Of a stretch of DNA of 64,000 bases, positions 49,874-55,266 are shown one piece after another. How positions within the stretch are numbered: position 1 is the first letter of the stretch; each line of letters opens with the position of its first letter. The stretch spans positions 62,001 through 126,000 of the forward strand of contig NZ_JMKT01000008.1 in the NCBI RefSeq assembly GCF_000686525.1. Direction: 5' to 3'. The position numbers and the translations under genes were made by a program. The notes below the pieces were generated by a model that was not told the DNA's origin, did no database searches, and worked only from the letters and a program-made list of their open reading frames with translations. The stretch is from Desulfonatronovibrio hydrogenovorans DSM 9292. GTDB lineage: Bacteria; Desulfobacterota; Desulfovibrionia; Desulfovibrionales; Desulfonatronovibrionaceae.

Positions 49874-50353
49874 ATGCCAGCCATCATCTTTAATGACCGG
49901 GAAAAGGAAATTCTGCGCATTGTTCAGGCCGATCTGCCCGATTCCCAGACTCCTTTTGCCGATATTGCCTCCAGAGCAGGGGTTTCTGAAGAGGAAGTGA
50001 TTGATCTTCTGCGCAAGCTCAAGGATCAGGGTCAAATCCGCAGGTTCGGGGCCACTTTGAGACATCAGCAGGCTGGATATGGATTCAACGCCATGGTGGC
50101 CTGGTATGTTGATGCTGAAAAGGATATTGGTGAGGTTGGCAGTATCATGGCTGAGCGCCCGGAAATAACCCACTGCTATGAACGAAGAAATTGCCTGGAC
50201 TGGCCCTATAATCTGTACACCATGATCCATGGCCGCTCCAGTGATGACTGCAGACGGGTGGTGGAGGAGCTCAGCGCAGAAACAGGGGTTGCCCAGTATG
50301 AAATGCTTTTCAGCAACGAAGAGCTGAAAAAGACATCCATGAAGTATTTCTAG
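49874..50353 (+). CDS. Siroheme decarboxylase subunit (AhbA/AhbB-like)
   Basis: A 159-residue Lrp/AsnC-like protein of the siroheme decarboxylase type. The N-terminal winged helix contains 'KEILRIVQADLPDSQTPFADIASRAGVSEEEVIDLLRKLKDQGQIRRFGATL' in segments. The C-terminal RAM-like half contains 'NAMVAWYVDAEK' and 'CYERR..LDWPYNLYTMIHG'. AhbA-AhbB heterodimers decarboxylate siroheme to didecarboxysiroheme in the alternative heme pathway of sulfate reducers and archaea. Only one copy is visible; the partner is elsewhere. hemL, the first step of tetrapyrrole synthesis, follows by 120 bases. Confidence 0.85.
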   Translation: MPAIIFNDREKEILRIVQADLPDSQTPFADIASRAGVSEEEVIDLLRKLKDQGQIRRFGATLRHQQAGYGFNAMVAWYVDAEKDIGEVGSIMAERPEITHCYERRNCLDWPYNLYTMIHGRSSDDCRRVVEELSAETGVAQYEMLFSNEELKKTSMKYF

Positions 50354-50473
50354 GCCGGACATCGCTGGATGGCTGGAATGCACCCGGCCCCAGGCAGGCT
50401 GGGCGTTTCAGGATCAAGACGTCTGATGTTCATTGTTCCGGCCTTAATTTATCAAGCAGACCATGAGGAAGGT

Positions 50474-51748
50474 ATGAGCATTTCCAGAGAACTTTTTGAG
50501 CAGGCCGTAAAGGTGATACCGGGCGGGGTGAACAGTCCTGTAAGGACCTGTGCCGGAGTGGGGGCTGATCCCCTTTTTATATCCAGGGCCCAGGGTCCGT
50601 ATATTTACACCGAGGACGGACAGAAGATGGTTGACTATGTCATGTCCTGGGGACCAATGATTCTGGGGCACAACCATGAAGCCGTAAACAGGGCTCTGCA
50701 TGAGGCCGTGGACAGGGGAACCAGCTACGGAGCACCATGCAGGCCGGAAATTGATCTGGCCGGACTTATTGTTGAGGCCCTGCCCGGAGTGGATATGGTC
50801 CGCATGGTAAACTCCGGCACAGAAGCCACCATGAGCGCCCTGCGTCTGGCCCGGGGATACACCGGCAGGCCAAAGGTGCTCAAGTTTACCGGCTGCTATC
50901 ACGGGCATGTGGATTCATTTCTGGCCAGTGCCGGCTCTGGAGCGGCCACCCTGTGCATTCCCGGGACTCCCGGTGTTCCAGAGGAGGTCGTTGCCCATAC
51001 CCTGCTGGCCGATTACAATGATTTGGAACAGGTCCAGGCCCTTTTTGCAGAACATGGCCAGGAAATTGCAGCAATATTTGTGGAACCCGTGGCCGGGAAT
51101 ATGGGCCTGGTCCTTCCCAGGGACGGATTCCTGCAGGGTCTGAGGAAGCTGGCTGATGAATACGGCTCCCTTTTGGTCTTTGATGAAGTCATAACCGGCT
51201 TCAGGGTGTCCTTTTCCGGAGCCCAGGGCCGTTTCAAGGTTATTCCGGACCTGACCTGCCTGGGCAAGATCATCGGAGGCGGTCTGCCTGTAGGGGCCTA
51301 CGGCGGCAGAAGAGAGATTATGGAAAAAATAGCCCCCTGCGGAGAGGTCTACCAGGCCGGGACCCTTTCGGGCAATCCCCTGGCCATGACTGCAGGGTAC
51401 CATACCCTGAAGACCCTCCAGGAAATGGATTATGATCAGCTGGAAGCCAGGACCGGAGAACTGGCAGTCAGCCTGAGGGATATCCTTGCACAAAAAGGGG
51501 TCCCAGTTCAACTTAATACCATTGGCTCCATATTTACGCTGTTTTTTTCAGACGCCCCGGTGACTGACTTTGCCTCGGCCAAAAAGGCGGATCAGGATCT
51601 GTTCAGGGCCTTTTACAACGGCATGCGTGATCAGGGTATCTATCTTGCTCCGTCAGGTTTTGAATGTGCGTTTAACTCTTTTGCCCACAGCGCCCTGGAG
51701 TGGGAAAAGACCCTGGAGGCGGCCCGCAGAGTTTCTTTCAGCCGGTAG
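50474..51748 (+). CDS. hemL: Glutamate-1-semialdehyde 2,1-aminomutase
   Basis: A 424-residue HemL. I start at ATG 50474 with AGGAAGGT upstream; the frame is open further up but unsupported. Motifs are '[17 protein letters not shown]', '[15 protein letters not shown]', '[23 protein letters not shown]', '[23 protein letters not shown]', and the PLP Lys in '[18 protein letters not shown]'. It makes 5-aminolevulinate from glutamate-1-semialdehyde. It is paired with the Ahb gene and precedes a c-type cytochrome gene, which suggests heme supply for cytochromes. Confidence 0.97.
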
Positions 51749-51896: not shown

Positions 51897-51907
51897 TAAG
51901 GAGGTGA
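51897..51907 (+). promoter_or_regulatory. Full-length Shine-Dalgarno of cytochrome c3
   Basis: TAAGGAGGTGA is an eleven-base perfect complement of the 3' end of 16S rRNA, and lies 6 bases before the ATG. It implies very strong translation, fitting an abundant periplasmic cytochrome. Confidence 0.85.
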
Positions 51908-51913
51908 AAAACC

Positions 51914-52387
51914 ATGAAGAAGTCCGTGATTGTTGGAGTGATTTTTGTTTTTGTTCTGGGCTTTCTGGTCCTGCCCAAGCTTTACGCCGGTCTGACCACA
52001 CAGCACAAGCAGCTGGACCAGGACATGTCTTATAAGCATGGTGAATATGCAGACAACTGGCTTTTGTATGCACCTGTGGAATACGGTGAAATGAGGGAAG
52101 CCCCGTCTCCATTCTCCCACAGCGTCCACGCTGATTTCGCTTGTGGTGACTGCCATCACGATGAGTTCGGAGAACCAAAGACTGAAGATGACAAGATTAT
52201 CGGCTGTATGAGTGCCGGCTGTCATGACATGGCTGTTGCCGAGTCTCCCAGGGACAGACGCGATATTCGCTATTTCTACAAAGCCTATCATGATATGTGC
52301 ATGTCCGGATGTCACCGTGACCTGGCTCAGGCCGGAGAACCCACCGGTCCCACAGCCTGTGTGGACTGCCATCCTAAAGAAGACTAA
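51914..52387 (+). CDS. Tetraheme cytochrome c3
   Basis: A 157-residue precursor with a signal peptide, likely cut after 'KLYA' (about residue 25). Four heme sites follow: CGDCH (77-81), CMSAGCH (98-104, CX4CH), CMSGCH (129-134, CX3CH) and CVDCH (149-153). All eight axial His positions of class III cytochromes c3 appear to be present: the four motif His plus H69, H72, H82 and H126. It is a periplasmic electron carrier between hydrogenases or formate dehydrogenases and membrane complexes. The third motif is CX3CH instead of the usual CX2CH and the fourth CX2CH instead of CX4CH, and the spacing before heme 3 is short, so it may be a type II (TmcA-like) variant. A terminator follows. Confidence 0.93.
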   Translation: MKKSVIVGVIFVFVLGFLVLPKLYAGLTTQHKQLDQDMSYKHGEYADNWLLYAPVEYGEMREAPSPFSHSVHADFACGDCHHDEFGEPKTEDDKIIGCMSAGCHDMAVAESPRDRRDIRYFYKAYHDMCMSGCHRDLAQAGEPTGPTACVDCHPKED

Positions 52388-52404: not shown

Positions 52405-52432
52405 AGGGGAAGCTTTGCTTCCCCTTTTTTTT
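52405..52432 (+). terminator. Terminator after cytochrome c3
   Basis: AGGGGAAGC (52405-52413) and GCTTCCCCT (52417-52425) form a 9-base-pair stem with loop TTT, followed by a run of eight T. A strong intrinsic terminator ending the hemL-cytochrome region. Confidence 0.92.
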
Positions 52433-52611
52433 GGCCTGCCTGTTTTTCATTCATTTTCAAGGGTTGCCCATCTGCCGGTGCAGCTCCCCCACTTTTATTT
52501 TTCCGGTATTATGCCGGTCCTTCCAGGTGCAGTTACTTTACAATGCAGATGTTTTTTTAGTATCGTCTGAACCGCGTTGCTCAGTAACATCAGCGAAACA
52601 AGGTGGTGCTT

Positions 52612-54174
52612 ATGGCTTCAGACAGAGAAAAAAACGATCTCACTGATGAGGAAATAATCGACCTGACCGATGTGGTAGAAGAGGGGAAGGTTCCTGAACA
52701 GGACAAGGACCAGCAGGACGATTCCTCTGGTGAACGGGATTTTGACGAGGATCTGAACGATCTGTTTGAGAGCCTCAGCTCGGAAAAAGATTCCCAGGAT
52801 GGACAGGACGAATTTGAAGACCTTTTTCAGGATAAGGAAGGTGAACCGGCCGGGGAAAAAGACTCAGGCCCGGATGATTCAGCCCGGGAGCAGGATCAGG
52901 CTGAAGATGATTTTTTAAAGGATTTTCTGGGTGATGAAGATCCTCAGGATCAGCCTGAATCAGCCGGGATAACAGATGAATCAGCTGAACTGGAAGATCT
53001 GGTTGCAGACCTGGAAGGGGAAAAGGGCGACCCGGGTCCTGACCTGGAAGAACAGCCCCAGGTCCCTGAGCCGGACCCGGACCTGGAAGAACAGCCCCAG
53101 GTCCCTGAGCCGGACCCGGACCTGAGAGTTGAGGGCCAGGCTGAGCCTGAAAAAGAGCCTGACACCAGTGAAGATAAAGAAGTCTCTCCTTCTTCTAAAG
53201 AGGACTTGCCCCCAGCTGCTGATCCTGAGCCGGAAAAGCCGGTCAGCGGGATAGAAACTCTGGCTGATCAGCTGGAGACCCTGGCGGATCGACTGGAAGT
53301 TCTGGAAGAAAAATTCAGCCAGGAACAGGAACGGCTTGAAACCAGGGCTGTCCAGGCTGTGGAGGAAAAGGGCCTGGACCTGGGATTTATTGAAGAGCTG
53401 TCAGCCCGGATCTCGGGCCAGGTCAAGGCCGGACTTGGCGAACTGATTGAGGAGAAGCTGGGAAATATCGAGCTGCTCAAGGGAATGGAAGATGAGTTCA
53501 GGGCCGGGGTCATTGAAATCATGGAGCAGAAAGGCCTTGAAACATCTTTTGCCAGGGATCTGTCCCAGAAAATATCTGAGGACACTGAAAAAAGGATTCA
53601 GGACCAGGTTGCCGGGCAGCTGGAGACTCTGACCATGTCTGATGAGTCTGAGTTCATCCGGAAGATCGAGGCTCTGGAAAAAAGGCTGGATTCCCTGAAT
53701 GTTCCGGATCCCTCAGAACTCCAGCAGGGGATTATGAAGGATGTTGAAATTCTTCTCGAGGAAAAACTGTCCGGCCAGGACTCAGGTCCTGATTCCCCGG
53801 ACCCGGGTCAGGAACTGTCAGACCTGGTGGATCAAAAGATCAGTGAACTGGTGGAGTCATGGCAGGCTGAAAAAAAGGCCCTGGCTGCAGAACTGGAAAA
53901 TGCCCTCAAGTTCTGGGGGAAGATGCAGGAGAAGTTGACGGTCCTGAGTCAGGACATTGGCGAATTGAGAGATAAAAGCACTGAACTGGACCCGGAACTC
54001 CTGGAACGGATTGATTCCATGAGTGAGCTGGCTGTCACCAGGACTGACCTGCGCAACCTGGCATCTCAGCTCAAGGTGGAACTTGAGGAGTATATTGAGA
54101 AAAAGGTCCCGGCGGCAGCTGCCCGGGTTATCCGGGAAGAAATCGCAGCCATTCTCAGGGATCAGTCAGAATAA
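52612..54174 (+). CDS. Hypothetical acidic coiled-coil protein
   Basis: A 520-residue, extremely acidic cytoplasmic protein, with no signal or transmembrane segment. The N-terminus has 'LTDEEIIDLTDVVEEG', a short motif seen in several deltaproteobacterial proteins. An Asp/Glu/Gln-rich low-complexity region (to about residue 210) includes a tandem 13-residue repeat. The C-terminal 300 residues are helical and coiled-coil ('IETLADQLETLADRLEVLEEKFSQEQERLE') with repeated 'EEKGLDLGFIEELSARIS' and 'EQKGLETSFARDLSQKIS' units. No catalytic motif. A scaffolding or cytoskeletal-like role is possible; function unknown. The ATG with upstream AAGGTGG is used; a GTG three codons earlier is possible. Confidence 0.8.
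   Translation: MASDREKNDLTDEEIIDLTDVVEEGKVPEQDKDQQDDSSGERDFDEDLNDLFESLSSEKDSQDGQDEFEDLFQDKEGEPAGEKDSGPDDSAREQDQAEDDFLKDFLGDEDPQDQPESAGITDESAELEDLVADLEGEKGDPGPDLEEQPQVPEPDPDLEEQPQVPEPDPDLRVEGQAEPEKEPDTSEDKEVSPSSKEDLPPAADPEPEKPVSGIETLADQLETLADRLEVLEEKFSQEQERLETRAVQAVEEKGLDLGFIEELSARISGQVKAGLGELIEEKLGNIELLKGMEDEFRAGVIEIMEQKGLETSFARDLSQKISEDTEKRIQDQVAGQLETLTMSDESEFIRKIEALEKRLDSLNVPDPSELQQGIMKDVEILLEEKLSGQDSGPDSPDPGQELSDLVDQKISELVESWQAEKKALAAELENALKFWGKMQEKLTVLSQDIGELRDKSTELDPELLERIDSMSELAVTRTDLRNLASQLKVELEEYIEKKVPAAAARVIREEIAAILRDQSE
53041..53118 (+). repeat. 39-base tandem duplication inside the acidic protein gene
   Basis: The 39-base unit at 53041-53079 is repeated exactly at 53080-53118, encoding a doubled 13-residue segment (DLEEQPQVPEPDP). 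A third partial unit (DL) begins after it. The identity suggests recent duplication. Confidence 0.95.
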
Positions 54175-54370: not shown

Positions 54371-54562
54371 ATGGATCAAGCCCAGAAACAGGCCCTGCAG
54401 GTGACCAAGGAGATCGTGGTCAAGTTCATTGAGGTGGGCCGGATTTCCCCCAACAATTGCCACGAGTTTTTCTCCCAGATATATCACGAGGTCCTGAGGA
54501 CCATAGTCAGTGGACAGGAGTCTGAATCCGGCTCCCTTGAAAGTGAAGAGAAATCCGAATGA
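54371..54562 (+). CDS. Small conserved-looking hypothetical protein (63 residues)
   Basis: A 63-residue helical protein, 'MDQAQKQALQVTKEIVVKFIEV' and 'HEFFSQIYHEVLRTIVSG' in its first 48 residues, with an acidic tail. AGGAG precedes the ATG at a proper distance. The stop overlaps the menG start by four bases (ATGA), strongly arguing it is real and translated with menG. No named family. It might be a small partner of the methyltransferase, but this is only positional. Confidence 0.72.
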   Translation: MDQAQKQALQVTKEIVVKFIEVGRISPNNCHEFFSQIYHEVLRTIVSGQESESGSLESEEKSE

Positions 54563-55266
54563 ACCGGACCGGGCACGGCAGAATGGTTGCCGGGTATTTT
54601 GCAAGCATTGCCGGCTGGTATGATTTTCTGAATCACTTTTTGAGCTTTGGTCTGGATGTTTACTGGAGGAACAGGCTAGTCAGGCATGTGCGGGCACCTG
54701 AAAACGGCCTGGTCCTGGATCTGGCTGCCGGGACCATGGACGTGACCAGCAAGATTCTCAGCAAGTACCCTGGAGTTCAGGTCCTGGCGGCTGACTTCAC
54801 CCTGCCCATGCTGACCAGGGGGCAGAAAAAAGTGGCCTTCAGAGCCGGGGATGTAATTCCGGTCCAGGCCGACGGCAGGGCTCTGCCTGTACCTGACCGG
54901 AGCATTGACACTGTGACCATAGCTTTTGGCATCCGGAATATTGTTCCCAGGCCAGAGGCGTACCAGGAGATACTCCGGGTTCTCAAGCCCGGGGGCAGAC
55001 TCTGCATTCTGGAGTTCGGCACCGGCAGAAAAAAAATCTGGCAGGGTCTTTACAATTTCTACCTGAACAGGGTCCTTCCCTTTATTGGCAGGGCCATTTC
55101 CAGGGACAAAGGAGCTTATTCATACCTGGCTGATACCATAAGACATTTTCCTGACTCATCCCGGCTGGCCCTGGAAATGAAACAGGCAGGATTTTCCAGG
55201 GTTTTTTATTATCCGTTGAGTTCCGGGATCGTATATATTCATGTGGGAGAAAAAGGCAGAGACTAG
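54559..55266 (+). CDS. menG: Demethylmenaquinone methyltransferase
   Basis: A 235-residue UbiE/MenG methyltransferase. It has 'YFASIAGWYDFLNHFLSFGLDVYWR', the SAM motif 'GLVLDLAAGTMDVTSKIL', 'DGRALPVPDRSIDTVTIAFGIRN', 'VLKPGGRLCILEFGT' and 'SYLADTIRHFPD'. It methylates demethylmenaquinone in the last step. No ubiquinone genes are present, so menaquinone is expected. It is coupled to the small upstream gene; mqnB and mqnD follow beyond an antisense gene. Confidence 0.95.
   Translation: MNRTGHGRMVAGYFASIAGWYDFLNHFLSFGLDVYWRNRLVRHVRAPENGLVLDLAAGTMDVTSKILSKYPGVQVLAADFTLPMLTRGQKKVAFRAGDVIPVQADGRALPVPDRSIDTVTIAFGIRNIVPRPEAYQEILRVLKPGGRLCILEFGTGRKKIWQGLYNFYLNRVLPFIGRAISRDKGAYSYLADTIRHFPDSSRLALEMKQAGFSRVFYYPLSSGIVYIHVGEKGRD

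Follow-up and report, generated by a model that had tools for sequence, protein, structure and literature searches.

Does a tetraheme cytochrome c3 with one extra residue in its third heme motif still hold four hemes, or is such a motif an error, an empty site or the mark of an altered heme? This question is raised by a gene of the sulfate-reducing bacterium Desulfonatronovibrio hydrogenovorans DSM 9292, located in a 64,000 nucleotide stretch of contig NZ_JMKT01000008.1 that was analysed as a whole (hereafter, the window). We examined the gene and its locus, the distribution of its motif among relatives, and the heme attachment machinery of the host.

A cytochrome c3 gene with an insertion at heme 3

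The gene (51914..52387, + strand) encodes a 157 amino acid tetraheme cytochrome c3 including its signal peptide, as indicated by PF02085, the closest solved relatives and synteny. A Shine-Dalgarno-like sequence read directly from the DNA, AAGGAGGTG (51899..51907, +), precedes the ATG, and an intrinsic terminator with a 9-bp stem, AGGGGAAGC/GCTTCCCCT, and a T-run lies downstream (52405..52433, +). Residues 1–25 (51914..51988, +) form a putative signal peptide that is likely cut after LYA; this site was placed by eye, and the structural model has an N-terminal helix at residues 3–28.

A motif scan identified CGDCH at heme 1 (residues 77–81; 52142..52156, +), in invariant alignment columns; CMSAGCH, a CX4CH motif with invariant Cys and His, at heme 2 (residues 98–104; 52205..52225, +); and CVDCH at heme 4 (residues 149–153; 52358..52372, +). 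The variant site is heme 3, CMSGCH (residues 129–134; 52298..52315, +), a CX3CH spacing shared by 28 distinct sequences of the order. Reading the open reading frame thus bore out the initial annotation, which had noticed this CX3CH motif and the retention of all eight axial histidines: H69, H72, H81, H82, H104, H126, H134 and H153 are invariant across 59 aligned c3 sequences, as are the eight heme cysteines, and heme Cys and His account for 16 of the 17 invariant columns. The series CX2CH/CX4CH/CX3CH/CX2CH was also given correctly, but heme 4 had been counted as a second departure from the standard, and CX2CH is ordinary there: it occurs in 77 of 79 c3s from the order, in a collection biased to relatives of the window protein, and in the solved c3 1w7o. 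CX4CH at heme 4 is a trait of Desulfovibrio vulgaris-type c3.

The PF02085 (Cytochrom_CIII) match scores 56 bits against a curated cut-off of 22.9 (E=5.3e-15), and the four CXnCH motifs and eight axial histidines stand in c3 order. No other window open reading frame of at least 60 amino acids has more than one CXnCH motif, which argues against a chance set. CX2CH at heme 3 is usual in c3, although it is not part of the PF02085 definition, and motifs such as CxGCH and CxDCH take the place of CMSGCH in relatives. Because the ligands and orthology hold, we class it as a c3 variant.

By both sequence and predicted fold, the window protein is closest, among solved structures, to 1w7o and 2cy3, two entries for Desulfomicrobium c3. 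They share with the window protein the class III fold, the four-heme type, the motifs CX2CH/CX4CH/-/CX2CH and the short H-x2-C loop before heme 3. Their own heme 3 motif, however, is CIDCH (CX2CH), and in the alignment the query has one extra residue there (HTQCI-DCHKAL vs HDMCMSGCHRDL). An AlphaFold2 model built from 59 sequences had a mean pLDDT of 87.4; its top Foldseek match was 1w7o (probability 1.00, TM 0.64 by target length), and all matches with E<0.1 were c3 or c3-containing cytochromes. CX2CH places its Cys pair at i, i+3. In the model a single helix (residues 121–139) passes through the heme 3 motif, and C129 and C133 would therefore sit one turn apart (i, i+4), a placement that, in this heme-free prediction, would be compatible with heme binding.

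The gene lies among conserved neighbours, each assigned by profile score and synteny. Upstream are ahbB, encoding the siroheme decarboxylase beta subunit of the alternative heme pathway (49874..50353, +; NF040707, 193.6 bits, cut-off 125), and hemL, encoding glutamate-1-semialdehyde 2,1-aminomutase (50369..51748, +; TIGR00713, over cut-off); downstream is a ubiE/menG-type (menaquinone) methyltransferase gene (54559..55266, +; TIGR01934, over cut-off). This ahbB-hemL-c3-ubiE neighbourhood is common to genomes with CX3CH and genomes with CX2CH, the latter in other Desulfovibrionales families (for example L071, L073, L076, L078, L080–L082, L085, L086, L092 and L105). The window gene is therefore the general c3 ortholog with a one-residue insertion, and not a new gene.

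A position near hemL and ahbB is also that expected of TpI-c3. At a size of 2.94 Mb and a completeness of 98.9%, the host genome yields four PF02085 matches in total, and since the other three are read as TmcA, NrfH and QrcA, the window gene would encode the only TpI-like c3 of the host. It resembles Desulfovibrio TpI-c3 in the hemL/ahbB locus, in its ligands and, presumably, in a periplasmic hub role, but differs in the CX3CH motif and in the acidic mature protein (pI 5.0). Heme 4 of D. vulgaris TpI-c3 has CX4CH, where the window protein has CX2CH. TmcA (type II c3) was considered as an alternative identity, being likewise an acidic tetraheme c3, and was rejected: the protein scores 34 bits against the NF045722 cut-off of 114, its neighbours are ahbB, hemL and ubiE and not tmcB, and a TmcA-like gene (L011) exists elsewhere in the host, beside one for a CCG-domain-like protein.

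Distribution and history of the CX3CH motif

Matches to c3 were translated from 348 Desulfovibrionales genomes, all of which were also scanned with the DNA pattern A-[YF]-H-x2-C-x3-C-H and the matches translated. The pattern covers only the short H-x2-C context, so that CX3CH forms with a long loop would escape it; none was present among the translated c3s. CX3CH c3 was found in 16 of the 18 genomes of the host family f1 (every genome of genera g1 and g2, one of the three from g3 and both of g4) and, outside it, in both genomes of genus g7 of family f3. It was not seen in the examined c3s from the rest of the 348 genomes. In a phylum sample of 395 genomes one more case appeared, in G358 (AYHQTCINKCH). 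Apart from f1, g7 and G358, the pattern matches in Desulfovibrionales and Desulfobacterota were not cytochromes when translated. Routine occurrence among family members, which the initial annotation had named as a refuting result, is thus observed for the host family, and the motif is no one-off rarity. Named relatives that carry it belong to Desulfonatronovibrio, Desulfonatronospira and Desulfonauticus, and its consensus is C-[MYW]-x-[GW]-C-H. The G358 sequence (G358:C189:15290-15544; L192, L199), with CINKCH at heme 3 in an AYH-x2-C context, comes from a distant Desulfobacterota lineage and is apparently an independent case.

Most g1 and g2 paralogs are CX3CH as well; L052 and L053 have CX2CH. 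Trees of c3, which have few columns, were built with the inserted residue removed; they require four to five changes of state between CX3CH and CX2CH, and a constraint keeping the family together was not rejected by these short alignments (p-AU 0.33). L052 and L053 nest within the CX3CH clade, which supports at least one loss of the insertion. The CX3CH sequences also share a context: the heme 4 axial His lies two residues before the first Cys in 28/28 distinct CX3CH sequences (counting AYHHMC), against 19/51 with CX2CH. A scripted count of the nearest His gave 26/28 against 19/51 (Fisher p ~1e-6, a significance inflated by relatedness).

Several further c3 proteins were observed. The same genera also have another subfamily of c3-like proteins (L046, L047, L048, L051, L054, L056, L057 and L058), which shows CX3CH at heme 3 and an N-terminal part of the form TYQHEG...PPxEYEE, and is found without the hemL neighbourhood. 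Two CX3CH c3 paralogs, L007 (G033:C59) and L008 (G032:C176), have a lipobox-like start (LGVAGC and FGVTGC) and a Pro/Glu-rich linker, and are perhaps membrane-anchored lipoproteins. In L070 (G026:C15; 288 amino acids), a c3 domain follows an N-terminal His-rich helical domain that by eye is DUF305-like.

Probable heme attachment at the third site

The host Ccm set comprises one CcmF, one CcmC and a CcmE with CASKY, and no PF03918 match was found for CcmH. System I*, as reviewed in PMC3601427, often lacks CcmH, and the CASKY form of CcmE together with the missing PF03918 match identifies the host machinery as System I*. CcmE of CX2CH relatives had CPSKY in most of those checked. A heme lyase dedicated to CX3CH was considered and rejected. 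The three PF01578 proteins of the host are read as CcmF, CcmC and HemX, the third adjoining hemA; PF01578 counts are about equal in CX3CH and CX2CH genomes, mostly three; and no extra heme lyase was found in the host.

System I mainly recognises CXXCH (PMC3601427), and the same review, citing Sawyer 2010, describes how altered Cys spacing led E. coli Ccm to form an aberrant persulfide linkage with an extra sulfur; occupancy or linkage at CX3CH therefore cannot be assumed. These data are the background to the suggestion that CX3CH is hard to mature in standard systems. They concern E. coli System I, whereas the host has System I*, and its gene content gives no sign of such difficulty. A precedent is Methanosarcina acetivorans MmcA, in which LC-MS/MS located heme on a CXXXCH motif (PMC11024163), although MmcA is a seven-heme archaeal protein and no c3. 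Atypical CX3CH motifs are also described in multiheme ImcH and some CymA homologs (PMC6295460), which, unlike c3, are membrane quinol oxidases with the CX3CH adjoining the membrane anchor.

Could the codon have been added to a CX2CH motif by a sequencing or assembly error? We found nothing in favour of this, and it is excluded: the frame is intact and ends at a normal Cys/His and stop, and 18 genomes of the order carry CX3CH with differing codons. The 90% identical ortholog L001 encodes CMSGCH with partly different codons, amid 60 synonymous and 16 non-synonymous codon differences along the gene. The fixation of CX3CH across a bacterial family indicates most likely a working variant, neither an error nor a dead site. 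An empty third site, which would make the mature protein a triheme cytochrome, had been raised from the start, and the departure from the CXXCH mainly recognised by System I speaks for it. Nevertheless, C129, C133 and the proximal H134 do not vary among the 28 distinct CX3CH sequences, nor does the distal H72 anywhere in the alignment, in proteins whose residues beyond the heme ligands diverge to about 50% identity; loss of the heme should relax these columns, and MmcA again shows a CXXXCH that carries heme. We consider a triheme protein very unlikely, and site 3 of the window protein is most likely occupied, judging from the conservation of its ligands.

A heme that is attached but altered, by a single thioether, a persulfide or a shifted potential, would set the protein apart as a functional subtype whose thermodynamics of electron transfer differ. 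The persulfide described in PMC3601427 for E. coli Ccm is in line with this, as are the retention of the extra residue in the whole family, its appearance in G358 too, and its constant association with the short H-x2-C loop. Yet the axial ligands are unchanged, the reversal to CX2CH in L052 and L053 suggests that both spacings are tolerated, and carriers vary in protein charge and named genus, so that no single adaptive pressure is visible. We therefore regard such a subtype as unlikely; similarly improbable is the more specific proposal that System I* makes a non-standard heme 3 linkage (a persulfide or shifted thioether geometry) that alters redox behaviour, with the insertion favoured by the AYH-x2-C context. 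The earlier idea of a subtype does hold at the family level, where heme 3 CX3CH marks a real c3 subtype. Desulfonatronovibrio and Desulfonatronospira are soda-lake organisms, and as named carriers they would fit an adaptation of heme 3 to haloalkaliphilic life. The chance of this is slim: Desulfonauticus sp. 38_4375 (L009) has the motif too, as do other lineages whose c3 is basic (L033, L037), and family f4, with a c3 just as acidic, lacks it.

Proposed role and significance

We conclude that the window gene very probably encodes the main periplasmic tetraheme c3 of the host, with four hemes, heme 3 bound through CX3CH, and normal c3 function. One residue would have been inserted between the Cys pair in a background with only two residues between the heme 4 axial His and the first Cys (AYH-x2-C-x3-CH). 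The single System I* Ccm, which must already serve CX2CH and CX4CH in this protein, would attach heme 3 as well, with His/His axial ligation kept and properties of heme 3 probably close to normal. The role of TpI-c3 in linking periplasmic oxidation to membrane complexes is established. By analogy, the window c3 most likely accepts electrons from periplasmic hydrogenases and thereby connects the oxidation of hydrogen or formate in the periplasm with complexes in the membrane, among them Qrc and Tmc, whose cytochromes the host also encodes. Possible partners are the large subunits of [NiFe]-type hydrogenases found in its genome, of which one carries a TGA codon within its frame, like NiFeSe enzymes. 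A point against this reading is that the mature protein as a whole is acidic (pI about 5), unlike basic TpI-c3, in which a lysine patch at heme 4 docks hydrogenase.

Our literature search, which left most subscription journals outside its reach, found no description of CX3CH in c3 or of a Desulfonatronovibrio c3. The CX2CH orthologs, CX2CH paralogs and CX3CH forms make up a natural, lineage-fixed c3 series that differs by one residue within a heme motif at one structural site. It permits testing of the tolerance of System I* for Cys spacing and of the effect of spacing on heme geometry and potential. Motif searches limited to CXXCH would miscount the hemes of such cytochromes.

Between the c3 and ubiE genes, the window also encodes an acidic, probably coiled-coil protein of 523 amino acids (52603-54174). 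Pfam and NCBIfam searches with it gave no match, and weak relatives occupy the same place in several related genomes.
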